A stretch of 64,000 nucleotides of DNA from Anagrus nilaparvatae (lineage: Eukaryota; Arthropoda; Insecta; Hymenoptera; Mymaridae). This document shows positions 21,540-50,582 of this stretch, in pieces (the first letter of the stretch is position 1; each line of letters opens with the position of its first letter). The DNA is taken from assembly GCA_022575985.1 (NCBI GenBank), contig JAKSXM010000040.1:11736001-11800000 (forward strand), given 5' to 3'. The position numbers were made by a program, and so were the translations under genes. A model generated the notes under the pieces. That model did no database searches. It was not told where the DNA came from and saw only the letters and a program-made list of their open reading frames with translations.

Positions 21540-21998
21540 TTAAAATTATTTTGTTGCAAACTTTTGTTTTACATTCTACAAATTAATTTTTTTCTAGGGA
21601 GGGGGGGGGGGTGGTTATATGATAAAATTGATAAGGGGTAGAAAGTTCTCAGAAACCTTTAAAAAATTGTAGAAGTAATTTAGGGCAGTCTCCCCATATT
21701 TTTTCTGCAGTAGAATAGACGGGAAGATACATGCCTGATGTGCATTGCTTTTTTGCATAATTCTGAAATCGACCTTAACGTTCTTTCTGGCCTCTGAGAA
21801 AAAATGATATTTCTTAAATTAGCGATTTTCAATATACATATATTTAATTTCCCAGAAAATTACATGACCAAATGACTAAATGACTTTATGTATAAAAATT
21901 TTTAAATATATATATTTGGAAAAAAATATTTTCAACTCTACTTTAAAAAGTGGGTCTAGTTTGTATGGAATCGGTTAAATAATGTAAATTATTTTCAG

Positions 21999-23986
21999 GA
22001 AATTATTCAGATGATATTGAAATTGAAGATCAATATTTACAAGATTGCGTCAATCGTTTTTACGATGATTATAATTTAAGTGAAGAAATGAAAAATAAGA
22101 CAATGTCTACTGATAAAAATAGAAGTAACAATAATTTGAAAAATGAAAGTAGTCCAGAAAACCTTGAAGCTTCAAGAATCATTAAAAATTTTATAGCTAA
22201 TGAATTATCCGATTTTTTAATAAAATTATTACCTCGTTGGGCATTAAAACATTTTCGAAGAGTAACGCATACAGCGCTTACAGATTTGTTGCATGAATTT
22301 AAAAAAGAAATGCCAGAACTTAAATTACCATGGGATTCACGTACGTTGCTAAAAACGCCAAGATCTACTCCAGTAGTTGAAGTTTCTAATGGAAACTATT
22401 GTCATTTTGGAGTTAAGCCATGTTTAAAGAAAATAATTAAACAACGCATTTCTGAAGGTATTTCAGGTTTTAATATTAGATTGTTGGTAAATGCAGATGG
22501 TGTACCATTGGGAAATAATGCTGTAAATAAATTTTTTCCGATCTTATGTTCAGAAACAGAAATAAAAAAAGTATACATAATTGGATTATTCTGCGGCGAA
22601 CAAGAGCCAAATGAACCAAATGAGGTACTTAAATTTTTTGTGGATGAAATTTCTGAAATTATAAATAGCGGTTTTGAATATGAAGGTAAAAAATACAACG
22701 TAGAATTATATAATTTAATATGTGATTCTCCTGCTAAAGCGCGCTGTCTTTATACCAAGTTTCCAACAGGATATGACAGCTGCCCAGTTTGTACAATTGA
22801 AGGAGAACACGGATCAAGAGGCGTGTGCTTTCCTGGTGGTATTTCAGCTTTGCGTACAGATGAAAATTTTAAAAATTTTTATTATACAGATTATCAACGT
22901 AAAAAATCAAGTCTTGCCAATATTCCAAATTTTGGCTGCATTACAAATATTCCTTTTGATCCGATGCACCTTGTGGATTTAGGTGTTTGTAGAAAAATAT
23001 TGCACCTATTAATTAATCCTACACCACGAATAAAAAAAAATGAGTGTAAAATAAATTTTGTAAATAAAAAAAAAATATCTGATTTATTAGAATCATATAA
23101 ACAATACTGTCCATGTGATTTTGCTCGTCGTCCAAGAAGTTTGGTTTACGCTTTAAAATTTAAAGCCACAGAGTACAAAGAATTATCATCATATACAGGA
23201 GTTGTTGCGTTTAGTGAGATATTGGAAAAAAGTGTTTATGATAACTTTGTTAAATTACACGTTGTAATGACAATTTTACATAACCCAAATCTTGCAGAAA
23301 AAAAAGAATGGTTAGATTTTGCAGAGAATATAATGCAGGATTTTCACGAAGGTTTTGAAGATATTTATGGTGAAGATTTTGCATCTTTTAATGTTCACGG
23401 TATATTACATTTAATCTATTTTTGTAGAAAATACGGATCTCTGGATAAATTTTCAGCTTACAGATTTGAAAGTTTTAACTACATAATAAAATTAGCTGCA
23501 ACTCGCAAAGGCGAAAAACCTTTACAGCAAGTAATGAGACGATTTTATGAATTAGAATGTTTAAATGACGAAGAAGAAATAATCGTAGGTATTGATTTGA
23601 AACAAGAGCATTCTGATGGCCCAATTTTAAATTTAAAACCAAATATAAAGCAGTTTAAACATTTAAAAAAAAAGAACCTTGAAATAAGGTTGGATGGAAA
23701 AAACAATATTCTATTCATGGAGAACAAATTCGTGATAGAAGCCTTAAATATTGTTTCAGAGAATAATGAAATTCGTATTATTGGTCGAAAATATAGCATA
23801 CTTTCGAATCTGTATACTGATCCATTACCGTCTAAAGATTTAGGAATCGTAGTGATAAGTTCACAAAGTTGTAATATTATACAGTCATGGAATATTAAGG
23901 ATGTAACTGCAAAAATGTTTAAGCTACCATACAAAGAAAATTTTGTTGTTTTACCTTTAATACACACATTTAATCAATCATCGTAA
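21999..23986 (+). CDS. CACTA/EnSpm-type transposase gene, exon 2 (catalytic)
   Basis: Continues exon 1 in frame after a TTATTTTCAG acceptor. The frame is open for 29 codons before the first internal ATG (22088) and ends TAA at 23984-23986, giving about 803 residues with exon 1. Visible motifs, numbered from the ATG at 22088: LLVNADGVPLG (D137), LICDSPAKARC (D213), a CPVC zinc-ligand pair (232-235), IPFDPMHLVDLGV (D291/H294/D297), NVHGILHL and YRFESFNY (E461). These match the order of conserved blocks in CACTA (Tnp2-like) transposases, including the DG, CDAPAKA-type, D-MH-D-GV and FE motifs. Catalysis would be cut-and-paste DNA transposition in the nucleus. No stop or frameshift interrupts the ORF, so it is either recently active or kept by selection. 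I did not find CACTA-starting terminal repeats around it, which leaves domestication possible. Confidence 0.82.
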
Positions 23987-34713: not shown

Positions 34714-35221
34714 ACTTAGATGTAAAAAAATGATATTAAAAAAGGTTTTATGTAATTTGACACATAATTAACGGAAGTATTACGATTAGAAAATAAAAAA
34801 AATTATCTAAGCTTTGAACTTTCAGATCAGATAAATTATCTTTTATCTTAAAAATAATATTTTCGATAAGCCATACATTCAGGCAGACGAATTTTCTTAT
34901 TTACAAAGGTTATAAAACCTTAGTAAACATAATCATGTGTTTGAATATTTTTTTGGTTTTTTGTAAAAATGTGGATGAGTTTAAAGAAAAAAAATTATTT
35001 GTTGCAACTACGAGGAAACCGCACGTTGAGTTATTTTCAAAAAAAATACTTTGTTTTAAAAAATAACCTATTTTATTTATGCATGTGCTTCGGTGCCTGT
35101 TAATTATTTATACTCAATTAATTAATTAAAAAAGTGGAAAAAAGATTTTGTGAAGCTTTAATAAGAGTAAGGCGCAAAGTAAGTAAGCTGCTTTTATTAA
35201 AAATTAATAAATGTATTTTTT

Positions 35222-35691
35222 ATGCAGCATTGTTATATTAATTTAAATAAGTTTCAGTTTGCTCTAGCCTTGCATGCCCCAAACCTTGGCTTAGAGCTAC
35301 CTGCTTTAGAGGGTTACGAAATTGTTGAAAAAAAGGATCAGCATTACACACTGCTTAAAATAATTAGGGCCGGCTTTAATAGAATCGAAGTAATGTTATC
35401 TCCAAAATTGCTATTCAAAAGAATAGGTTATTTAGCAGCTAGTCAAAGTTTTCATATGGATTCTGAAATAACATATTTTTATTTTTTGTTACAATGTTAA
35501 AAATTTTGTATTGACACCAATATTCATTATTTTTCAGGAATTAATGTTAACGAACAATATGATTCGGAGAGATTTAAAAAGTAATAATCAATTCGATATT
35601 GGGTTAGAATTAAGTGGCTTAGACTGTTCAAGATTTATCAAGAGATTTAGTCAATGACATCATGACTTTACTAACCACTAAAAAACCATAT
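35222..35691 (+). pseudogene. AP-3 complex delta-subunit gene fragment, left arm
   Basis: The frame from 35222 contains FKRIGYLAASQSFH, identical to the conserved AP-3 delta-adaptin stretch. Before it is AGFNRIEVMLSPK, matching the AAFNIIEVM-type sequence of the family. At 35468 the expected phase-0 intron begins with AT instead of GT (GAA|ATAACA), so the donor is dead. The 70-bp intron ends TTTTTCAG. Exon 2 (35538) continues ELMLTNNMIRRDL, then a frameshift near 35629, then DLSRDLVNDIMTLL and TTKKPY before a TAA. This is a small part of the N-terminal trunk of a ~1,000-residue protein. AP-3 delta (garnet in Drosophila) works in endosome/lysosome-related vesicle traffic. The first ~35 residues of the frame do not match AP-3 and are unexplained. 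Confidence 0.82.
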
Positions 35692-36583
35692 TAAACCTTA
35701 AATATTTAGTAAAATTGGAGATATTGAGTAAAAACGATAATTTTAGATATGTATGTACTTTCATAGAATAAAATTACGTACTACGTCCAAACCAAAAAGA
35801 AATAATGCTGTTTTTTTATGTAAAATATTTTGACGAAAAAAATTTGACCAAAAAATTAAGTACCAGATTCGAGATATTGAAAAAACCATATTTTCAGATA
35901 TTAGTATTTTCATAGAAAAAAATTCGGTGTTGCGTCCAAAAAGAAAAAAAATAGCTGTTTTTTGTATTGTTTGGTGGCAAAAATTTGATACAAATCTTTT
36001 CGAAAAATTAATTATCAGAATCGATATTTTCAGATATTAATACTTTTATAGAAATAAATGTGAAATTAAATCCAAATTAAAAAAAAAGTACGTGCAGATT
36101 TTTTGGTGAAAATAATTTAAAAAAAAAATTAGGTCTCAATACCGTAATGATTGTTATATTATATTACCGGTTAAACGCGTGCAAACACCTGTTTTTTAGC
36201 TTCCTGGGGTCTCAAAACGTGCTTATATGCAAAAAAATAAGAACTTCACCTTTAACAATGGTTCCTTTATGATACACTAAAATTTGAGATAAACAAATAC
36301 GTTACTTAAAAATTATAATAATTCTCAAGAGAAGTTAAAAAATTGAAAAAATATTCAATTTCTATAGCCATTGATCAAGTTATATTTCCCTTAAAAAGTA
36401 AAAAAAAAAAATTTTTTATTTATTGACTACAGGCGGAGAAATTAGAGTTTGAAGTTATTATTTTCTAAATTTTTCCCCGAATAAATTGATATTTTGAAAA
36501 TTATTCCCAATTGGGCCACGCTATTATCCAATGGGCCAAACCCCACTCACATTAGCTAAGTACATCCCCGCTTGCATTATCCA

Positions 36584-36760
36584 AGGCCCGTATTAGGATA
36601 ATCCAAGGGCCGCCCAAGGCCCGTATTAGGATTATCCAAGGGGTCTCCGTGTGCATTATCCATGGGCTCCCGCTTGCATTATCCAAGGGCCACCCTAGGA
36701 TTATCCAAGAGACTCCTTGGATAATCCTAGGGCGGCCCTTGGATTATCCTAATACGGGCC
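36584..36760. repeat. GCATTATCCAAGG repeat block at the palindrome centre
   Basis: Several copies of TTATCCAAGGGCC alternate with CCCGTATTAGGATTATCC. A local hairpin CTAGGATTATCCAAG / CTTGGATAATCCTAG has a short loop at about 36710-36714. GC-rich compared with the arms. Confidence 0.75.
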
Positions 36761-37655
36761 TTGGATAATGCAAGCGGGGATGTACTTAGCTAATGTGAGT
36801 GGGGTTTGGCCCATTGGATAATAGCGTGGCCCAATTGGGAATAATTTTCAAAATATCAATTTATTCGGGGAAAAATTTAGAAAATAATAACTTCAAACTC
36901 TAATTTCTCCGCCTGTAGTCAATAAATAAAAAATTTTTTTTTTTTACTTTTTAAGGGAAATATAACTTGATCAATGGCTATAGAAATTGAATATTTTTTC
37001 AATTTTTTAACTTCTCTTGAGAATTATTATAATTTTTAAGTAACGTAATTGTTTATCTCAAATTTTAGTGTATCATAAAGGAACCATTGTTAAAGGTGAA
37101 GTTCTTATTTTTTTGCATATAAGCACGTTTTGAGACCCCAGGAAGCTAAAAAACAGGTGTTTGCACGCGTTTAACCGGTAATATAATATCACAATCATTA
37201 TGGTATTGAGACCTAATTTTTTTTTTAAATTATTTTCACCAAAAAATCTGCACGTACTTTTTTTTTAATTTGGATTTAATTTCACATTTATTTCTATAAA
37301 AGTATTAATATCTGAAAATATCGATTCTGATAATTAATTTTTCGAAAAGATTTGTATCAAATTTTTGCCACCAAACAATACAAAAAACAGCTATTTTTTT
37401 TCTTTTTGGACGCAACACCGAATTTTTTTCTATGAAAATACTAATATCTGAAAATATGGTTTTTTCAATAATTCTCGAATCTGGTACTTAATTTTTTGGT
37501 CAAATTTTTTTCGTCAAAATATTTTACATAAAAAAACAGCATTATTTCTTTTTGGTTTGGACGTAGTACGTAATTTTATTCTATGAAAGTACATACATAT
37601 CTAAAATTATCGTTTTTACTCAATATCTCCAATTTTACTAAATATTTAAGGTTTA

Positions 37656-38125
37656 ATATGGTTTTTTAGTGGTTAGTAAAGTCATGATGTCATTGACTAA
37701 ATCTCTTGATAAATCTTGAACAGTCTAAGCCACTTAATTCTAACCCAATATCGAATTGATTATTACTTTTTAAATCTCTCCGAATCATATTGTTCGTTAA
37801 CATTAATTCCTGAAAAATAATGAATATTGGTGTCAATACAAAATTTTTAACATTGTAACAAAAAATAAAAATATGTTATTTCAGAATCCATATGAAAACT
37901 TTGACTAGCTGCTAAATAACCTATTCTTTTGAATAGCAATTTTGGAGATAACATTACTTCGATTCTATTAAAGCCGGCCCTAATTATTTTAAGCAGTGTG
38001 TAATGCTGATCCTTTTTTTCAACAATTTCGTAACCCTCTAAAGCAGGTAGCTCTAAGCCAAGGTTTGGGGCATGCAAGGCTAGAGCAAACTGAAACTTAT
38101 TTAAATTAATATAACAATGCTGCAT
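37656..38125 (-). pseudogene. AP-3 complex delta-subunit gene fragment, right arm
   Basis: Mirror copy of 35222-35691. It has the same mutated donor (GAA|ATAACA), the same 70-bp intron and the same frameshift, so the lesions predate the inverted duplication or have been homogenised since. Confidence 0.82.
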
Positions 38126-38633
38126 AAAAAATACATTTATTAATTTTTAATAAAAGCAGCTGACTTACTTTGCGCCTTACTCTTATTAAAGCTTCACAAA
38201 ATCTTTTTTCCACTTTTTTAATTAATTAATTGAGTATAATTAATTAACAGGCACCGAAGCACATGCATAAATAAAATAGGTTATTTTTTAAAACAAAGTA
38301 TTTTTTTTGAAAATAACTCAACGTGCGGTTTCCTCGTAGTTGCAACAAATAATTTTTTTTCTTTAAACTCATCCACATTTTTACAAAAAACCAAAAAAAT
38401 ATTCAAACACATGATTATGTTTACTAAGGTTTTATAACCTTTGTAAATAAGAAAATTCGTCTGCCTGAATGTATGGCTTATCGAAAATATTATTTTTAAG
38501 ATAAAAGATAATTTATCTGATCTGAAAGTTCAAAGCTTAGATAATTTTTTTTATTTTCTAATCGTAATACTTCCGTTAATTATGTGTCAAATTACATAAA
38601 ACCTTTTTTAATATCATTTTTTTACATCTAAGT

Positions 38634-38875
38634 TCAATTTTTTCTCAAGATTTACAAAAAAAAAATTTTTTTGCCGAAAATAAAATTTTTATTTCCCAAA
38701 GTAATGACTTTCCGGGCTCAAAAGTATTTTCAATCGAATTATCGCACCCAAAAACATAATTTACCACCAAAAATAATCGTAAAGTTAATTTACCCTTCTC
38801 GACGCACGTTTCTATAATTACAATTATTCCTTTAAATTTCGCCGTTTTAATAGAAAATTTCCTAAAAACATAAAA
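38634..38875. other. Spacer after the palindrome
   Basis: AT-rich. TTAATTTACCCTTCTCGACG at 38787-38806, continuing CACGTTTCTA, recurs exactly near 41203, just upstream of the retrotransposon. Confidence 0.5.
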
Positions 38876-39050
38876 AAATATATCCTTATATAAAATTTCC
38901 CGCGGAATTCAAAGTTTTGGTCAGATTTTGAATTGCTCACATGACTTGGTGGAAAATTTGAAATTTGTAAAAAATGAACTTTTAAACCTGCTATATTTTG
39001 ATCTAGAGCTCTCAAAACGCAATAACCCAGTGTTTTCCCTTTTTCATGAT
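38876..39050 (+). repeat. Foldback repeat family X, partial copy 4
   Basis: TATCCTTATATAAAATTTCC then CGCGGAATTC, GGTCAGATTTTGAATTG, GCTATATTTTGATCTAGAGC and TCTCAAAACGCAATAAC follow the order of 2650-2870. It runs directly into the 128-bp array. Confidence 0.7.
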
Positions 39051-39860
39051 AATGACCTTACATCGATGAAAACGTTTTTTTTCAACCTTGTACACCCGCA
39101 GTCAATATAAAAAGCCTTTTCTGGAATGTTTTGGAAAGCTGAAAAATATGCTGGGGCGGAAAAATTAAAATTTTTATCAATGAAAAAGTTTCTCTTAACC
39201 TTGGAAACCTCTAGGTAATATAGAAAGTTCCTATTTTATGTTTTTTGTTCCACCATCTTGGAAAATATGATGAAGCCAAAAAATAAAAAATTTCATTCAT
39301 AAAAACGTTTTTCTCTACCTCGAAAAACCCCAGGTAATATAGATACTTCTGCTATTCATATTTTTTGTTTCGCCATATCGGAGAATTCTGGAAACATGCT
39401 TGGGTGAAAAAATAAAATTCATAAATGAAAATTTTTTTCTCAACCGCGTAAACCCCTAGGCAATGTAAAATGTTTGTTCTGACATGTTTTTTGGTCCACC
39501 ATTTTGGAAAATTAGAAAATATGCTGGGGATAAAAAATGAAAATTTTCATTAATAAAATCGTTTTTCACAACCTCGAAAACCCCTAGGCAATGTAAAAAG
39601 ATATAATATAAGATAATTCTGACAAGATTTTTAGTCCGCCATCTTGGAAAATTGGAAAATATGCTAGGGCAATAATATTAAAATTTTTATTAAGAAAAAC
39701 GTTTTTCTCAACCTTGAAAACTCCAAGGTAATGTAGAATAAGTTTCTAATTTAATGTTTTTTGTTCCGCCATCTTGGGAAATTGAAAAAGATGCTGGGGC
39801 AAAATAATGAAATATTTCAATTATAAAATCTTTTTTCTTGACCTCGAAAACCCTCAGAGA
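39051..39860 (-). repeat. 128-bp repeat array, about six diverged units
   Basis: CCATCTTGGAAAAT-type cores at about 39127, 39253, 39373, 39499, 39639 and 39769 give 120-140 bp spacing. Each unit carries AACCTCGAAAACCCC and ATGCTGGGGC. Same family as 33.1, 34.2 and 60 kb, more diverged. Confidence 0.8.
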
Positions 39861-40355
39861 CTCTCACTACACTTGTGGGTAAAATAGGGATCCAGCTACA
39901 TTATCCTCGAATTTTTTTTTACCAGCTACACTATACCTTACTTAAAATTCATTTCCCTCTTCTTTTTTCAAACGTTTTTAGTACGACGACGGCTAAAATA
40001 ATATAATAATTATTTTAAATTGATATTTATTTTAAAAAAGTGTCAAATCAAAGAAATTATAAAAACTTAAATATCTCTTTTTATTATAATACTTTGTAAA
40101 AATAGGAATTATCTGCTTAAAATTTTTGAAATTGAGCTTATAACCTCAAATTTTCTACAATTTGCTTAAAGCAAATTGCTTTTAAATTACAGAAAAATTT
40201 TGATAAATTATTAAATAAATGAGGTAAGTTCAATAAAAATATTTTTTTGATTAATGAATAAAAATTACGTGAAATTTTTTGTTTAGTTTCAGCTAATTTT
40301 TTATTTTTAAATTAATTTTACCAATATTTTTACAGTTATTTCTACAATAAACAAA
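39861..40355 (+). other. Upstream region of the Myb/SANT-like gene
   Basis: AT-rich. A GAG|GTAAGTT donor at 40224 and a TTTTTACAG acceptor ending at 40335 would define a 112-bp intron in the 5' UTR of the gene that starts at 40356. Confidence 0.45.
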
Positions 40356-40931
40356 ATGGGAAGTAAACAAAAGCATAATTTTAGCCAGGATGAAACATTT
40401 AACCTGATACAAATTTGGGGAGATCCAGATATTCAACATCTTCTCAGAACTTTTCGTAAACATAAACTAATTTATGAAACTATCGCTACTCAACATGCAG
40501 AAAGTGGGTATAAAAGAACGGGTCCTGAAGTAAAAGAAAAAATTAGAAACCTGAAAAAAGATTATGTTAAAAAAAAACCAAAATCAGGAGGGGCCATTCC
40601 AAAATGGCCCTTTTACCATGCAATTCACAAGGTCTTGGGGCAGAAAGATGTTTACAATGACCAGCTTTTAACAGATTCTTTAATATTTAGTGATGATAGA
40701 AGTGAAGATTCAGAACAAGATAAAAATTTTGATGACAAACTTGACCCTGAAACCGAGATCACTGATGAACCTACTCCTAAAAAATATCATAAAATTAAAA
40801 GAAAGCCTCCACCAAGAAAGAGAAAAAATGAACAAGTTGATCTTCTGGGGGAAATCAAAGAATTAAACAATTTATCAAAAAATAGCTATGAACACTCTTT
40901 GGAAATGGTGTTACGTCTAAACTTACTTTAA
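40356..40931 (+). CDS. Myb/SANT-like (trihelix-type) DNA-binding protein
   Basis: 191 codons from ATG to TAA. Residues ~8-95 fit the Myb/SANT-like domain of insect trihelix-type proteins: DETFNLIQIWGDPDIQHLLR, then YKRTGPEVKEKIRNLKKDY, then WPFYHAIHKVLG near the end. The tryptophan usually present at the start of helix 1 is replaced (HNFSQDE). After the domain come an acidic stretch (DDRSEDSEQD), a basic nuclear-localisation-like patch (KRKPPPRKRK) and a short helical tail. The domain binds DNA in the nucleus; targets are unknown. Such proteins occur both as host transcription factors and as the second protein of PIF/Harbinger transposons. No Harbinger transposase is nearby, so I cannot choose. 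A putative 5' UTR intron (40224-40335) supports a real transcription unit. Confidence 0.75.
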   Translation: MGSKQKHNFSQDETFNLIQIWGDPDIQHLLRTFRKHKLIYETIATQHAESGYKRTGPEVKEKIRNLKKDYVKKKPKSGGAIPKWPFYHAIHKVLGQKDVYNDQLLTDSLIFSDDRSEDSEQDKNFDDKLDPETEITDEPTPKKYHKIKRKPPPRKRKNEQVDLLGEIKELNNLSKNSYEHSLEMVLRLNLL

Positions 40932-41202
40932 TGTAACCTGTAAAGAATATTGCTAATGCGAATAGGATACCTTTTAGCATTGCGTCTACGTGACACTAAC
41001 GGCGGGAAAGGATTAGGTTCAAATCAATTTAAGATAATTAATTAATAACTACTTTTTCTTTTATTATTTACTTATTAGTTATAAAATGTCTTATAATAAC
41101 TTACAACTTGCTTACTATGATTACTAATTAAAGTCCAACTGGAAGTCCTAAATATTTTAAAGTCCAACTACTAAGATCACTTGGATTGGTAAGTATACTT
41201 AA
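40932..41202. other. Junction between Myb/SANT-like gene and retrotransposon
   Basis: TTAAAGTCCAACT occurs twice (41126-41140, 41157-41170). No poly(A) signal stands out for the upstream gene. Confidence 0.35.
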
Positions 41203-41884
41203 TTTACCCTTCTCGACGCACGTTTCTAAAGTGGCGCAATGAAATATTTGCAACCCTGTAGAACAGGGCTCCACAGCAATGTGGCCTTGCCCTACAGAGC
41301 AAGGTAATCGTTGCTGCTGGTTCATTCATGTTTGGGACCTTCACCTGCTGTCTGTTGGGGGGATTCAGAAAAAGCCACGAAAAAAGCTGAAAAGTTCGCT
41401 GGGATTGGCTGCATGTGTTTCCGTCTAAACAAAAAACTGTTTACTTTAAATGTGATATATGTGTTGCAGCTAATAACTTCGGGACGTAAGGCCTGAAGCG
41501 GTAATTATCAGATAAACCCTTGCAGCTGCAGGTGTTGGGCGCGAACATGACTGATCCTAGGATCCCTGATTTCAGTGAGCCCTGCGGCGTTCGCTCCATA
41601 AATAGTGAAGAAGCTCTTTTTTTGTTCAGAGCTTCCCTGACTAACCTAAAACCTAATTAAAATGCACAAGTGTGTAAGTCCCAGGAGCAGATGTCTGGGT
41701 GGATATCGCATTCTTTCTTGCAGTGCAAATCGAATGATCGAACGGCACGTGCTGTTTTTCACCTGGTGATCATTTGATCATCTGTGGAAGTAATCTTACT
41801 TTTGTAAGAATCATTGGGATCTTGACCAATCGCTAGGAATGGCCTATGAGGATCCTGTTAATACGACGGGTAAAATATCGTATT

Positions 41885-42772
41885 ATGTCAGCAGACATCG
41901 CTGGCACCGGCCCCATGGATTCTGAGGGGGGCCAACAATTTTGCATGGAGGTGGATTTAACATCATCTTCCACCCAGGGGGGACCAGGTAAGGAACTTCA
42001 AGCCACAGTTTTGCTTGAACGTATTCAGCACCCACTACCTGCAGAAGGTGCAGGGAATACTGAAAAACCAAGCTATGCGGACAGCCTTAAATATCTGCAA
42101 AACTTAGCATATGGCACTGGTAATCTTAACACAGACCAGGCCTTTGATCAAGCAGTGGTCGAAAAGCCCAATGCCTTCCTTCACCACATTTCTGTTCTGA
42201 AGGATGTTGCACAGGCTTTGGAAAAACACTATAAGGAAATGATGGAAGCTCATCCCAGCATGTCACATCACTGTACATCAGTACAGAAAAATTGTGGCAT
42301 GCCAATTAAAAATGGAGTAAATCTCTTCGGCAATGTACTCATTCAACTTGAGCTAATAACGAAGAGACTGCATGCAGAAACGAAAGACATTGAGTCTGCT
42401 ATTAAAAAAGCAGAAAATAAACAGCAGGCAAAGAGAATCCGATCGTCTTCCTCTGAGGAGAACTCCCCAGAGTCAAGACAAGATAGGAAAAGGATCCACA
42501 AGAAGAACATCAGCAACTCTGGGGTGGAGCAGCAGAACAACGCGGAGCTCCAGGAAGAAGAGGAAAGAAGGAAAATGCTGCTTCAAGAAAGCCAGAGGAA
42601 GGAGCAAGAACAGAGGATTAAGGAGAAAGTGCGACTGGAACAGAAGGAAAAAGAGCGGCGTAAAAAAGATAAACTGATCCAGGAAGCAAAAGAAGAAGGT
42701 AGGTCTGCTAGAATTATACCAAAAGCAGAAGCTGGAACAGAAAAAAGGGAAGCGGCCACCAAAAGAGAATGA
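41885..42772 (+). pseudogene. Retrotransposon ORF1, N-terminal part
   Basis: The likely start is ATG at 41885 (MSADIAGTGPMDSEGGQ); an in-frame ATG lies 13 codons upstream. The C-terminal half is a long charged coiled-coil (EEEERRKMLLQES...KEKERRKKDK). The frame ends at 42772. Lysine-rich coding sequence continues in another frame to about 42918, so at least one frameshift separates it from the zinc-knuckle part. ORF1 proteins of this clade bind the element RNA. Confidence 0.7.
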
Positions 42773-42983
42773 ACTTGCGGGGGGAGATCGCCAAAATAAG
42801 GGAGATGACTCAAAGGTTGCTCCTAACAACACCAAGGAGAACGGCCCACAGGATAACCCTGAGACCTCCCCCAACAAGGATGGAGATAAGGACACCCCTA
42901 GGCATAAGTCCAAAAAATAAAGAAAGCTGCTGAAGAAACAAAAGCAGCTGCAGCTCCAACCAAGAAAGGGTACTGATCAGCAT

Positions 42984-43910
42984 ATGGAGATATGCGAAGT
43001 AGCTGACGGACAAGAGCAGCAAAATCAGGTACCTAAGAAGCCACTGGTCAAGGAGGAAAATTGGCTGGTAAAGGGTAAGAAGAAGAAAAAGCCCAGGGCC
43101 AAAAAGCCCCAGCCAACAAAGAAACCTGCAGAAAAAGGTAAAGTACCTTCCAAGGTGGGAAGGCGCAGGTATAAGAAAAGGAAAGAAGCCTTCCAGATTA
43201 CCCCAGCGGCGGGCAAATCCTACGAGGAAACGCTTCTCGATTTAAAGAGAAACGTTAACCTCGAAGAATTTGGCGCGAAGGTCCACCGCATCAGGAAAAC
43301 TCAAAACGGCAGCGTCCTTATTGAGTTGGAGGCCATCGAGGACCGACAAAAACTGGAAGAAGCGGTGAAGTCGGTCACGGGCCCTGAGTCGAATGTTCGT
43401 GACTTGATCCCGACACTAAAACTCGAAATCCGAGATTTGGATGGGGTCACGAAAGAACAGGAGATTCAGGCAGCTGTTGCCAAGGCCATAGGTGTCGAAA
43501 ATGAAGACCTATTCCAGGTGTCCATTTTCAAAACCAAAGGCACAACAAGCCAGATGGTCGTGGTGGATATTCTTGAGGCCGACGCTATACGCCTGGCCAA
43601 AAAGGGCAAAATCCAGATCGGCTGGGCATCGAGTAGAGTGCGCCTCCGTGCAGACGTGAGGCGCTGCTACAAATGTCTGGGCTATGGACATAGCCAATAT
43701 GTCTGCAAAGGCCCAGACAGAAGTAAGGCGTGCTTAAAGTGTGGCGAAGATGGCCATAAGAGGACAGAGTGCAGCAAGGATAAGCCTGAGTGCTTCCTCT
43801 GCAAGACCAGAAAGGATAAGTGCTCCACGGAGCACTATCCTGGAGAGGGAAACTGCCCCAGTTACCGGGAGGCTCTAGCTGTGGCAAGAAGCAGGTGTCA
43901 TCGGAAATGA
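42984..43910 (+). pseudogene. Retrotransposon ORF1, gag-like zinc-knuckle part
   Basis: Open frame of 308 codons. It begins with lysine-rich sequence, then a globular region (about residues 70-215), then CYKCLGYGHSQYVC and CLKCGEDGHKRTEC (CCHC knuckles) and a third CFLC...H....C-type cluster. This trio near the C-terminus is typical of R1-clade ORF1. Its stop TGA overlaps the ORF2 start (ATGA at 43907-43910). Separated from the N-terminal part by frameshifts. Confidence 0.82.
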
Positions 43911-44374
43911 TCAAGGTTCTCCAAGGGAACATGCAACACGCACGGGAAGCTGGTGCATTGTTGGATCAAATTGCTCGCGAAGAGGATGCAAATATCCTCT
44001 TACTAAGCGAGCAATATTACAACATGAACCACAAGTACTGGCTTTCCGATGACACTGGCTGCTGTGCCATATGGCTTCGAGGCAGAGCCCAAACGTCTCT
44101 TACCCAACATGGGAAAGGGAATTGCCATGTCTGGGCCAAGTGTGGGGAGACAACTTACATAAGTTGCTATCTCTCCCCAAACGACAACTCGGCAGAACTG
44201 GCTACAAAGCTGGTCAGCATCGAGAGCACGGTCCGGACGGCGACTGGTGGCGTCATCCTTGGTGGAGACTTCAACGCCAGGGCTCTGGAATGGGGGATGC
44301 CAACGACTAACCCCAGGGGACGAATGGTGCTCGAAATGGCCACTAGGTGCAAACTAGTGGTCCAGAATAGATGA
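43907..44374 (+). pseudogene. Retrotransposon ORF2, APE-like endonuclease part
   Basis: Starts ATG ATC AAG GTT, overlapping the ORF1 stop by four bases. MIKVLQGNMQHAREA is the usual QxNxxHxxxA opening of the endonuclease. LLSEQYY gives the catalytic-glutamate block and GGVILGGDFNAR the GDFNA motif. It stops at TGA 44372-44374 (NR*NRPTYERAG), apparently a nonsense change, and a frameshift follows near 44405. Confidence 0.8.
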
Positions 44375-44404
44375 AACAGGCCCACCTACGAGAGGGCGGG
44401 TTGG

Positions 44405-44792
44405 GGTATATATCTCTATCCCGGACATAACCTTCGCTACAGAAGCTGCGTCCGGGAGAATAGGCGACTGGAGGGTGATGGATGATCAATACAATGGTAG
44501 TGATCATCATTACATCGCCTTCCGGGTATTGGAAGGAACCTCACAAAGACCTCCGTACAGGAGGCGCCCCTTGGGTTGGAACGTCCCAAAAATGGACGAA
44601 GACAGATTCGAAGAGTATCTTCGAATCGAGTCAGCGTCCAACCCCGCTTGGCATGGAGGGGCCACAAGTCCCCATGAGGCTGAAATCTTAAATAAGAAAG
44701 TAACGTCTCTATTATGCGGGGCTTGTGATGCCTCGATGCCTCGCCGCAGGCCCTGGAAAGGGAGAAAGCCAGTGTACTGGTGGACTCCCTAA
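44405..44792 (+). pseudogene. Retrotransposon ORF2, endonuclease end and linker
   Basis: In the shifted frame SIPDITFATEAASGRIGDW and YNGSDHHYIAFRV supply the C-terminal endonuclease block (SDH motif). The frame ends at TAA 44790-44792 (WWTP*), but the same frame continues directly into IAELRKECHRTRRKA and the RT region, so this is a single nonsense change. Confidence 0.75.
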
Positions 44793-44999
44793 ATAGCTGA
44801 GCTCCGGAAGGAATGCCACAGGACACGACGAAAGGCGCAAAGAGCACGGGACAGACCTGAGGCCGCCGTTCTTTCTCAGGATCATAAGGACGCCAAACAC
44901 CGGCTGGCCAAGGCCATCCGTCAAAGCAAGGCTCGATGTCTGCGTTCATTACGCGAAGATGTAAACAAGGACCCCTGGGGCCTAGGTTACAAAATCGTA

Positions 45000-46865
45000 A
45001 TGGGCAAGTTGAACCGGGGGTCCGACAACATGATGGACGCGGCGTCGACTGAACGGATCGTCGGTGCTCTCTTCCCTGAAAGGCCCATCCGGGAAAACCC
45101 GACTGAGATGATACCCAGGGAGGAAGTGCCGCTGTTCAGCGAAGGCGAGATGGTCAAGGCCATAAAGGCCATGAAAAATGGCAAGGCGCCGGGGCCGGAC
45201 GGGATACCAGCGGAAGTGCTCAAAAGAGCGGTCAAAGTAATCCCTGGTATCCTGTTAAGCATGTTCAATGCGTGTTTGGTGGCTGGAGTGTTCCCAAAGC
45301 AGTGGAAGGTGGCACGTCTCGTGCTATTGAACAAGGGCAAGGGGGGAGCCCCGGACTCTCCATCATCTTACAGACCTTTGTGTATGTTAAATACCATTGG
45401 TAAGGTAATGGAGAGCTTGCTCCGGGCAAGGCTCAGAAGGGCAATCGAGGAGGGCGGTGGTCTCTCTGAGGAGCAGCATGGTTTTCGTGAAGGGCATTCC
45501 ACGATAGACGCCATTCGGCGTGTCGTGGATACCGTAGAGGCTGAGAGAAAAAAGCGGCCTGCAATTCGCAAGGACGTCCTTCTGGTAACGCTGGACGTCA
45601 AAAACGCTTTCAACTCGGCCAGGTGGGATGACATGATCCGGTCCCTCGAGTACGATTTCCGGATACCCAGGTATCTGGGTAGCGTACTAAAGGATTACCT
45701 GCGGGACCGGAGACTGCTCTACGACACGCTGGATGGAAGGCGTGAAAGGGTTTTGAGTGCAGGCATCGCGCAAGGTTCGGTTCTCGGACTGCTCTACGAC
45801 ACGCTGGATGGAAGGCGTGAAAGGGTTTTGAGTGCAGGCATCGCGCAAGGTTCGGTTCTCGGACCGGACCTGTGGAATGCCTTTTACGATGGCTTGTTGC
45901 GCGTCCACCTCCCGGAAGGAGTTTCCCTGATCGGGTACGCCGACGACGTGGCCCTGGCCATAACTGGCAGGGACATGGAAGTGACCCAGGAGAGGTTGAA
46001 TCTAGTCATGAGACGGATCAACCTCTGGATGGGCGATCACGGGCTCCAGCTTGCGATCCCAAAAACGGAGATCGTACTGCTGACTCGTCGAAGGGTTCCC
46101 ACCGACTTCGATGTAATTATCGACGACGGCGGAAACCCTCACACAATCCGAACCAGAACATCGGTGAAATACCTGGGAGTTCAGCTTGATAACAAGCTGA
46201 CCTTCTGGGAGCAATTTCAGAGGTCGTGTGAAAAGGCAGCGTCGGCCGCATCCTCCCTGTCAAGGCTCATGGCCAACATTGGGGGACCCAAACCAGGGAA
46301 GCGAAGGCTCCTGATGTCAGTCGTCAACTCTGTCCTGCTCTACGGATCAGAAGTCTGGGCGAAGACCACAGAAACTGCCAAGTACAGACGAAAAATATCG
46401 TCGGTACAGAGGCAAGCGGCAGTGAGGATCGCCTGCGGATACCACACGGTATCTCTAGAGGCGATCCAGGTTGTTGCTTCGGTGATACCCATTGACCTGC
46501 TAGCGTTGGAGCGGAAATTCATCTACGAGAGCGTAGATGAGCGCGAAGTGGCTTCCACTCGCGCCCGCTTCAACTCTATGAAAGCATGGAAGAAGCGATG
46601 GAAAAAGAACCAAGAAAAAAATGCCCTATGGACGCGCAGACTGATCTCAGACCTGCAGGCATGGATGGGACGACAGCATGGGGAGGTGGATTTCTACCTT
46701 ACCCAGTTCTTAACTGGACACGGGTACTTCCGTGTCATGTTGAAGCATTGGCATAAGGTGGCAACAAAGGAGTGCTTGCACTGTCCGGGCGTGGATGATA
46801 CAATAGAGCACACATTCTTCGAATGTGTTCGCTACTCGGGGGGGCGCCCGCCCTTCCCGATTTGA
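45000..46865 (+). pseudogene. Retrotransposon ORF2, reverse transcriptase part
   Basis: 621 codons from the first ATG; the frame is open back to 44793. RT blocks in order: GKAPGPDGIPAEVLK, YRPLCMLNTIGKVME, QHGFREGHSTIDAI, LLVTLDVKNAFNSARWD (catalytic D), GIAQGSVLGPDLWN and IGYADDVALAI (YADD). A 75-bp in-frame tandem duplication just before the GPDLWN block repeats LLYDTLDGRRERVLSAGIAQ and would place an extra loop in the RT core. The C-terminal CLHC..H..C zinc motif (ECLHCPGVDDTIEHTFFEC) is present. The frame then breaks near 46838, and coding-like sequence continues to about 47027. Confidence 0.88.
45713..45862 (+). repeat. 75-bp tandem duplication inside the RT domain
   Basis: ACTGCTCTACGACACGCTGG occurs at 45713 and again at 45788, with identical sequence between. 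The duplication is 25 codons, in frame, and covers part of RT motif B. Confidence 0.95.
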
Positions 46866-49219: not shown

Positions 49220-49286
49220 GTAGCAACTGATAAGTTCTGTTATTAAATATTGCTATTTAAAAATTTGCATTTATAATACTTTAATT

Positions 49287-50558
49287 ATGTCCAAGGCAAG
49301 TGTTGCTTCAAATCAAAAGATTGCAGAAAAGTTAATGGTTTTAAATGAAAGAGGGATTGGCATGTTAACCCGCATCTATAATATAAAAAAAGCTTGTGGT
49401 GATGCTAAATCAAAACCAGGATTCTTGTCTGACAAAACTTTAGAATCTGCAATTAAAATAATAATAAGAAAATTTCCAAATATTGATATTAAAGGACTTC
49501 AATCCTTAAATAATCTTCGGAATGAAATAATTAAGTCTTTATCTCTTTATTATTATACATTTGTTGATCTTCTAGAATTCAAGGATAATTTATGTGAACT
49601 ATTAACAACTATTGATGCTTATAATTTACATATGGATATTACAATTAACTTTGATTTAACTAAACTTTATTTGGATCTAGTGATTGTATACATTAGTTTA
49701 ATGATTTTACTTTCTCGAGTAGAAGACCGTAAGGCTGTCTTAGGTTTATTTAATGCTGCTCATGAAATGGTTCATGGTCAATTGGATCCTAGTTTTCCTC
49801 GATTAGGTCAAATGATTATAGATTATGAATTTCCATTAAAAAAATTATCAGAAGAATTTATTCCTCACTCTAAAATTTTATTGACAGCCTTATTTTCTTT
49901 ATTTAATATTTATCCGAGTAAAAATTTATCTGCTGATAGTTGGAGAGCAGACCAAAAACTTAGTTTAGTTGGTAGTCCCGGACAATTATTGAAAGCTGCT
50001 GCTACTGAAACTATGTCTTGTGAAATATTAAGTTTAGAGAAATTAGAAAAATGGATTATATTTGGATTTACTCTTTGCCACCATGTTTTAAATCAAGAAC
50101 AACCTAATAAAATCTGGATAGCCGCATTAGATTCAGGATGGGTAATTACTCTTTTTAGAGATGAAGTAATATATTTTCATCAGTATATTCAACAATTTTT
50201 TGAAGGCATTAAGGGATATGGAAAAAGAATATCAGAAATTAAAGAAAGTTACAGCCATTCAATTCAAAAAGCTGGTTATAAACATCGAGAAAGGAGAAAG
50301 TTTTTAAGAACTGCTTTAAAAGAGCTAGGCTTAATATTAACAGATCAACCAGGGCTCTTGGGTCCAAAAGCTTTATTAGTCTTGATGGGTATGTCTCTAG
50401 CAAGAGATGAAGTGCTATGGCTTTTGAAGCATGGTGATAATCCACCTATTCAAGGAAAAGGAAAGGGTCGAGGATATGAAGATTTAGTAGATCGACAACT
50501 ACCAGAACTCCTATTTCATTGTGAAGAATTAAGAGCATTAATAAGGAAATATTCTCAA
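49287..50558 (+). CDS. Hem / NCKAP1 (WAVE complex subunit), first coding exon
   Basis: Encodes the first 424 residues of the Hem/Nck-associated protein 1 family, whose members are usually about 1,120 residues. Conserved stretches include NERGIGMLTRIYNIKKACGD near the start, FVDLLEFKD, DLTKLYLDL, PRLGQMIIDYE, NLSADSWR, EKWIIFGFTLCHHVLN, HRERRKFLRTALKELG and LSDQPGLLGPKAL-type sequence. After HRERRKF the known family order is kept. The exon opens at 49220 after TATTTCAG and ends exactly at codon 424 (Q) before GTACGTAA, where homologues continue without a gap. The ORF runs seven codons further only into the intron. Hem is a core of the WAVE regulatory complex that passes Rac signals to Arp2/3 and actin at the cell cortex. 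No frameshift or poly(A) tract suggests a retrocopy. The remaining exons lie beyond 64000. Confidence 0.93.
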
Positions 50559-50582
50559 GTACGTAAAATTTATATATATTAA

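Follow-up and report, generated by a model that had tools for sequence, protein, structure and literature searches.

An AP-3 delta palindrome in Anagrus nilaparvatae is very probably a truncated copy of a gene-capturing foldback transposon

A near-perfect palindrome of 3.9 kb in the genome of Anagrus nilaparvatae very probably represents a non-autonomous foldback DNA transposon in a truncated copy, similar to the Pack-TIR elements (TIR, terminal inverted repeat), that has captured exons of a host trafficking gene, the one for AP-3 delta. The palindrome lies in the window analysed here, a stretch of 64,000 nucleotides (C79:11736001-11800000 in contig coordinates) from an assembly of 488.7 Mb in 393 contigs. 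Each arm carries a broken AP-3 delta fragment that includes an intron, palindromes of this kind are found at five dispersed sites with shared ends, TA precedes most of the intact ends, and the two arms of every copy are sisters in the segments compared.

Structure and content of the palindrome

As the initial annotation of this DNA had described, the two arms pair almost perfectly around a 106-bp centre, with 99.58% identity over 1,908 alignment columns. Chance is not able to produce such pairing, and the palindrome is real. The 8 unlike columns comprise substitutions at 35107, 35185, 36144, 36155 and 36297, a 2-nt indel at 35875 and a last mismatch at about 36616, the inner edge, where one alignment becomes gappy. 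Both arms share the AP-3 delta signature, the 70-nt intron with its GAA/ATAACA donor, the frameshift and NDIMTLLTTKKPY, all of which had been noticed before. The AP-3 delta piece is part of their content; they also hold an element end, an exon-like piece, repeats of ~150 bp and the border of an array with a ~22-bp unit. A scan of the window against Rfam gave no matches at gathering scores. The features of the pairing part are as follows.

34714..36619, plus strand: left arm; the outer ~210 bp of the element is missing on this side
36620..36725, no strand: centre, 106 bp, a stub of a ~22-bp ATTATCCAAGGGCC-type repeat array
36726..38633, minus strand: right arm, 99.58% identical to the left arm
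35258..35366, plus strand: exon-like piece that directly follows an AG acceptor and shares its reading frame with the AP-3 delta piece; mirrored in the right arm
35369..35467, plus strand: first exon part of the AP-3 delta fragment (AGFNRIEVML...SQSFHMDSE), from sequence comparison with the gene
35432..35467, plus strand: longest exact match to the intact AP-3 delta gene, 36 nt, the source of 16 exact 21-mers
35468..35537, plus strand: retained AP-3 delta intron, 70 nt; donor ATAACA, GTAACA in the intact gene
35538..35695, plus strand: second exon part; an 8-nt deletion shifts its frame, and a stop follows KKPY
37656..37978, minus strand: right-arm mirror of the AP-3 delta fragment, from tblastn

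We found FKRIGYLAASQSFH in both arms (35369-35470 and 37978-37877), and tblastn placed AGFNRIEVM..., LMLTNNMIRRDL... and DLSRDLVNDIMTLLTTKKPY in both arms as well. The reading frame at 35258-35480 matches residues 36-71 of AP-3 delta among solved structures (best E 3e-7), while its Pfam match to Adaptin_N is below the cut-off (E 0.0045).

Five palindromes of one build

The palindrome is not a lone inverted duplication, because four more of the same build stand elsewhere in the genome, at C147:4.15 Mb (L015), C196:16.82 Mb (L016), C62:32.90 Mb (L017) and C62:42.76 Mb (L018). A query spanning 35258-35700 has 14 genome matches: nine palindrome arms, one remnant, three matches at the gene and at two further loci (L020 and L021, see below), and one relic. 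The remnant, 48 bases of the query, is all that the tenth arm (L017 right) retains, and both arms of L018 match only query positions 1-266 and keep only the first AP-3 delta part. The long arm matches share 96-98% identity with the window arm, and one 122-bp piece stands at 92.6%. The spacing of the frameshift is identical in all seven arms that keep both exon parts, so decay of the fragment started before it spread.

Arm length is ~1.9 kb in the window and ~2.1 kb, ends included, in L015 and L016; arms in the other copies reach up to ~210 bp further outward, and those that are intact terminate in CAGGGTTGCAAATATTTCATTGCG. Between the arms of L015-L018 lie ~1.4-2.4 kb, in which arrays of a ~22-bp unit (ATTATCCAAGGGCCGCCCTAGG, as measured in L017) stand at the inner arm ends in opposite orientation. 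A unique centre of ~320 bp is common to L016, L017 and L018 (96-98% identical).

Comparison with these copies shows that the window copy is broken. Its right arm continues past the pairing part:

38634..38814, minus strand: outward continuation of the right arm, which has no left partner in this copy; its identity with the outer arms in L015-L018 is 98-99.7% (L018 shorter)
38815..41198, no strand: nested 2,384-bp insertion interrupting the right arm; arm bases 38785-38814 are directly repeated at 41199-41228
41199..41258, minus strand: true right end, with CAGGGTTGCAAATATTTCATTGCG on the minus strand and TA next to it (41259-41260)

The extent first annotated, 34714-38633, thus describes the pairing part, and the element itself is longer: its right arm ends at 41258 and ~210 bp are gone on the left. 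With the right arm extended and the left end lost, the observed symmetry is the remainder of a larger palindrome. The left outer ~210 bp was not found within the window, and a 128-bp tandem repeat adjoins 34714. As to the nested insertion, the 30-base direct repeat around it is unusually long for a target repeat. The insertion itself contains tandem repeats of 126-140 bp, in which GTCCGCCATCTTGG occurs, as well as an open frame at 40353-40931 with a Myb/SANT-like domain (PF13837, E 4e-17).

Element ends, target site and older relatives

Eleven of 15 compared ends keep CAGGG, and TA precedes ten of the eleven, the exception being the left end of L017 (GC). The four damaged ends are those of L016 (left), L037, L040 and L047. 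The window averages ~71% A+T, a composition at which TA before ten of eleven ends far exceeds the chance expectation, and TA is likely the target of the element as judged from these flanks. TA stands on both sides in L015 only, so that the sign of a 2-bp duplication is weak; visual inspection of the L015 and L017 flanks showed no 8-bp target duplication.

The 217-bp end has at least 39 genome matches, a count which, like its parts, is a lower bound: 10 belong to the five palindromes, a further 22 measure 60 bp or more (73-92% identical) and 7 measure 40-45 bp (87-93%). None of the 29 matches outside the palindromes falls at any of the 14 AP-3 delta matches. Four of these relatives (L049, L058, L059 and L060) were read 4.4-6.2 kb inward from the end, and blastn found no AP-3 delta piece there. 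Relatives with the same ends that lack the captured piece make it probable that the ends predate the capture. Inverted pairs of up to 397 bp occur in L059, L049 has some repeat of the 22-bp type, and L060 contains, ~4 kb inward, a coding remnant that matched no Pfam family.

In the segments compared, the two arms of a copy resemble each other most

We compared the arms over two segments common to all ten (885 columns; L017 left contributes 213 of the 293 bases of the second segment, and L018 right begins 18 bases into the first), a comparison chosen because a large deletion leaves L017 right misaligned when whole arms are aligned. The arms of one copy differ at 3 (window), 10 (L015), 6 (L016), 5 (L017) and 6 (L018) columns, versus 9-28 between copies. 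A tree pairs both arms in every copy, with support of 100, 99 (complementary split), 100, 98 and 88 for the window and L015-L018, and the true left-right pairing is the best among all 120. Both arms of L018 lack the same ~740 bp, and both arms of L017 share the same ~180-bp insert. Over whole arms, own-pair differences are 10/1,911 in the window and 11/1,901 in L016, both clear, and 16/1,173 in L018, which is moderate; the L017 pair (93/1,086) is out of register owing to the large deletion in its right arm. To judge from the sequences, the arms are either homogenised within a copy, at least partly, or remade from one arm at transposition.

The parent gene and the decay of the captured fragment

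The initial annotation had proposed to look for an intact AP-3 delta gene elsewhere and to compute its identity to the arms. Such a gene lies at C317:28.09 Mb (L019) on the minus strand, with a start exon (MALKKVKGNFERMFDKN...), further exons after it, and exons on both sides of the captured piece. For one of its exons the match to AP-3 delta chains has E 1e-73, the next adaptor being AP-1 gamma at 1e-15. Gaps excluded, the fragment differs from the gene at 36 of 319 aligned bases. The differences fall on all codon positions (6/86, 12/85 and 12/86 for positions 1, 2 and 3) and on the intron (6/62), a pattern as for sequence free of coding constraint. The retained intron indicates capture at the DNA level and not retrocopying. 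C317 contains no match to the element end, and L019 none to the remainder of the arm.

Another candidate for the parent gene, L022, was rejected, being a decayed relic of the element. Two further loci carry AP-3 delta exons: L020/L062 (C317:14.60-14.61 Mb) and L021/L061 (C62:70.51 Mb) share ~8 kb at 99.84% identity. The shared stretch is a mosaic that combines 1.28 kb of AP-3 delta (99.4% identity with the gene) with a Metallophos_2 piece, which we take to be VPS29, and an Fe_hyd_lg_C piece, presumably CIAO3/NARFL. This is a separate, recent duplication of AP-3 delta exons. AP-3 delta-like fragments with one stop each are also present at C373:3033956-3034096 (60% amino acid identity) and C281:598251-598391 (57%); they span residues 48-94 of the exon query, mostly past the part carried by the palindromes.

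The exon-like piece at 35258-35366 gave nothing in Pfam or solved-structure searches, and a six-frame genome search returned nine matches, every one a palindrome arm, with no parent. Two loci, L041 and L042, resemble 266-282 bp of the arm near 35022-35300 at 70-71% identity but yielded no source gene. An open frame of 95-99 amino acids (35258-35484 and its mirror) fuses the exon-like piece to AP-3 delta; its first 36 amino acids are identical in 9/9 matches, and third codon positions make up three of the four variable sites at 35258-35466. In a comparison of seven of the ten arms, 227 sites include 4 variable ones against ~12 expected (P 0.003, for that stretch). We do not claim constraint on the frame, as 822 of 5000 permutations yield some stretch equally poor in variable sites.

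Neighbourhood of the palindrome

Elsewhere in the window, 41837-46865 resembles a non-LTR (long terminal repeat) retrotransposon (RVT_1, E 4e-28; zinc knuckles below cut-off only). Within its reverse transcriptase frame, at 45712-45864, 75 bp are exactly duplicated in tandem. A host gene lies near the element: a 452-amino-acid open frame at 49224-50582 is Nckap1/Hem (PF09735, E 2e-195). A 667-amino-acid open frame at 21983-23986 looks transposase-like by eye and has no Pfam match at E 0.1.

Origin of the palindrome

The five palindromes have the hallmarks of foldback elements: very long TIRs that make up most of the element, tandem repeats in the arms (the ~22-bp arrays of L015-L018, of which the window keeps a stub), and dispersed copies with the same ends (five palindromes and at least 39 end matches). 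As with Pack-TIRs, a piece of a host gene sits in an element with TIRs and an intact, element-free parent exists elsewhere. The captured piece does not lie between the TIRs but inside both arms, so the working is Pack-TIR-like and the layout is different.

We suggest that the ancestor was an element whose inverted ends were of the CAGGG type and whose target was probably TA, and that it captured a piece of AP-3 delta (two exon parts and the intron) together with the second, exon-like piece. The captured stretch would then have entered both arms, probably via repair of one arm from the other, with the arms lengthening after the capture if this order is right. Spread by transposition would have followed, with a transposase presumably supplied by a partner element. 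Arm-to-arm copying would keep the two arms alike at each site; here we favour gene conversion over hairpin-primed resynthesis. Whether or not RNA is made from it, a foldback form combined with arm homogenisation would turn a captured piece into a near-perfect palindrome despite 1-3% divergence between copies.

Several observations weigh against this origin. The relatives L049, L058, L059 and L060 show no arm-length palindrome over 4.4-6.2 kb inward, and no transposase or autonomous partner was recognised in these four, the whole genome not having been searched. TA at both ends, the putative target duplication, is seen in L015 only, and the L017 left end lacks TA. A 2-bp TA target is also unusual for an element with long arms (here and below, cited papers are represented by excerpts): PMC4079207 puts most foldbacks with Mutator, and the TA-duplicating TcMariner elements generally have TIRs of <100 bp (PMC8277862). 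Finally, homogenisation is incomplete, as the right arm of L017 alone lacks arm positions 593-1550, and over whole arms the two L015 arms (32/1,881) differ from each other as much as L015 left and L017 left do (30/1,869).

A different reading, that of the initial annotation, treats the window palindrome as a candidate hairpin-RNA (hpRNA) locus. Its homology to AP-3 delta stands; the locus is not, however, a single inverted duplication of a gene fragment but one of five mobile foldback copies. That the palindrome is transcribed through its centre, that Dicer-2 cuts the hairpin and that small interfering RNAs (siRNAs) act on AP-3 delta mRNA appears distinctly unlikely from what the sequence offers. 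A long, near-perfect hairpin with host gene homology is what an hpRNA gene would have, homogenisation of the arms would preserve it, and fly hpRNAs are proposed to derive typically from their targets (PMC10317233). Too low an identity to the parent in every 21-nt window would have spoken against such a role. In fact, a 36-nt stretch is perfect, and each window arm holds 16 of 499 parent-exon 21-mers exactly, 58 at ≤1 mismatch and 103 at ≤2 (0, 0 and 0 in one simply shuffled arm). In principle, these exact matches would allow AP-3 delta to be targeted; those of the window copy all come from that one stretch. On the other side, the fragment is decayed (36/319 bases differ), the L018 arms keep the first AP-3 delta part only, and L017 right has 0 of 499 matching 21-mers. 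Exact counts in the other arms are 19 (left) and 5 (right) in L015, 4 and 4 in L016, 19 in L017 left, and 16 and 16 in L018.

Near-perfect palindromes are also a known form of assembly artefact, such as a read turned back on itself. This is highly improbable here: the window arms differ at 8 alignment columns, and the five palindromes are spread over four contigs, where their flanks differ and each copy has differences of its own while the ends are shared. A single local, non-mobile inverted duplication of an AP-3 delta pseudogene, which is how the window looks when taken alone, has a practically negligible chance of being right, being refuted by the same structure at four other sites, the common ends and the same-ended relatives without an AP-3 delta match.

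Comparison with known systems

Overall, a foldback transposon with captured AP-3 delta exons finds its closest parallels in Drosophila. Foldbacks with array-bearing arms include Tetris of D. virilis (PMC4079207). Like Tetris and Galileo, the copies described here have long inverted arms with tandem arrays, a non-coding middle and no transposase, and, as Tetris does with DAIBAM (PMC4079207), they share outer ends with other elements. Galileo copies show 98-100% identity between their arms and include 'extended or recombinant' TIR copies with grown arms (PMC3573991). In the repair model excerpted from that paper, one arm serves as template for mending the other and the copied tract runs further inward; under this model a piece captured beside one arm would enter both. 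The differences are the host exons in the arms and the TA at the ends, versus target duplications of 8-10 bp (Tetris) and 7 bp (Galileo). According to a table excerpt of PMC2775673, Galileo arms at an inversion are closer to those of another copy, which is not seen here in the 885-column segments.

In Ssk-FB4, a Pack-TIR of D. melanogaster, a foldback likewise captured a host gene and then gave several copies (PMC8277862). There the fragment is flanked by TIRs, whereas here each of the two arms contains it, so that it forms an inverted pair; and Ssk was captured almost completely and is reported as protein-coding, whereas the AP-3 delta piece is frameshifted. The Drosophila hpRNA locus hp-ODox is similar in being an inverted repeat, with ~200 bp of Tapas exon 2, distant from the parent gene (PMC10317233 excerpt). 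Such loci yield siRNAs; the palindromes here are mobile-element copies, known from their sequence. In a narrow check (titles and abstract starts of open-licence papers) we found no paper on host exons inside both arms of a foldback as an inverted pair. Animal Pack-TIRs, array-armed foldbacks and hpRNA loci with host exons are known, and within that check host exons as an inverted pair in both arms appear to be new.

It is unlikely, though conceivable, that foldbacks with host exons in their arms act as mobile makers of hpRNA, scattered by transposition and each kept near-perfect by copying between its arms, and that at least some of the five palindromes still lower AP-3 delta via siRNAs. If they did, this would be a route by which hpRNA genes arise distant from their targets. 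For loci far from their targets, PMC10317233 names locus mobilisation and retrogene insertion as options. Should RNA be made, a foldback with inverted host exons, available in five comparable copies, would provide a concrete case of locus mobilisation.

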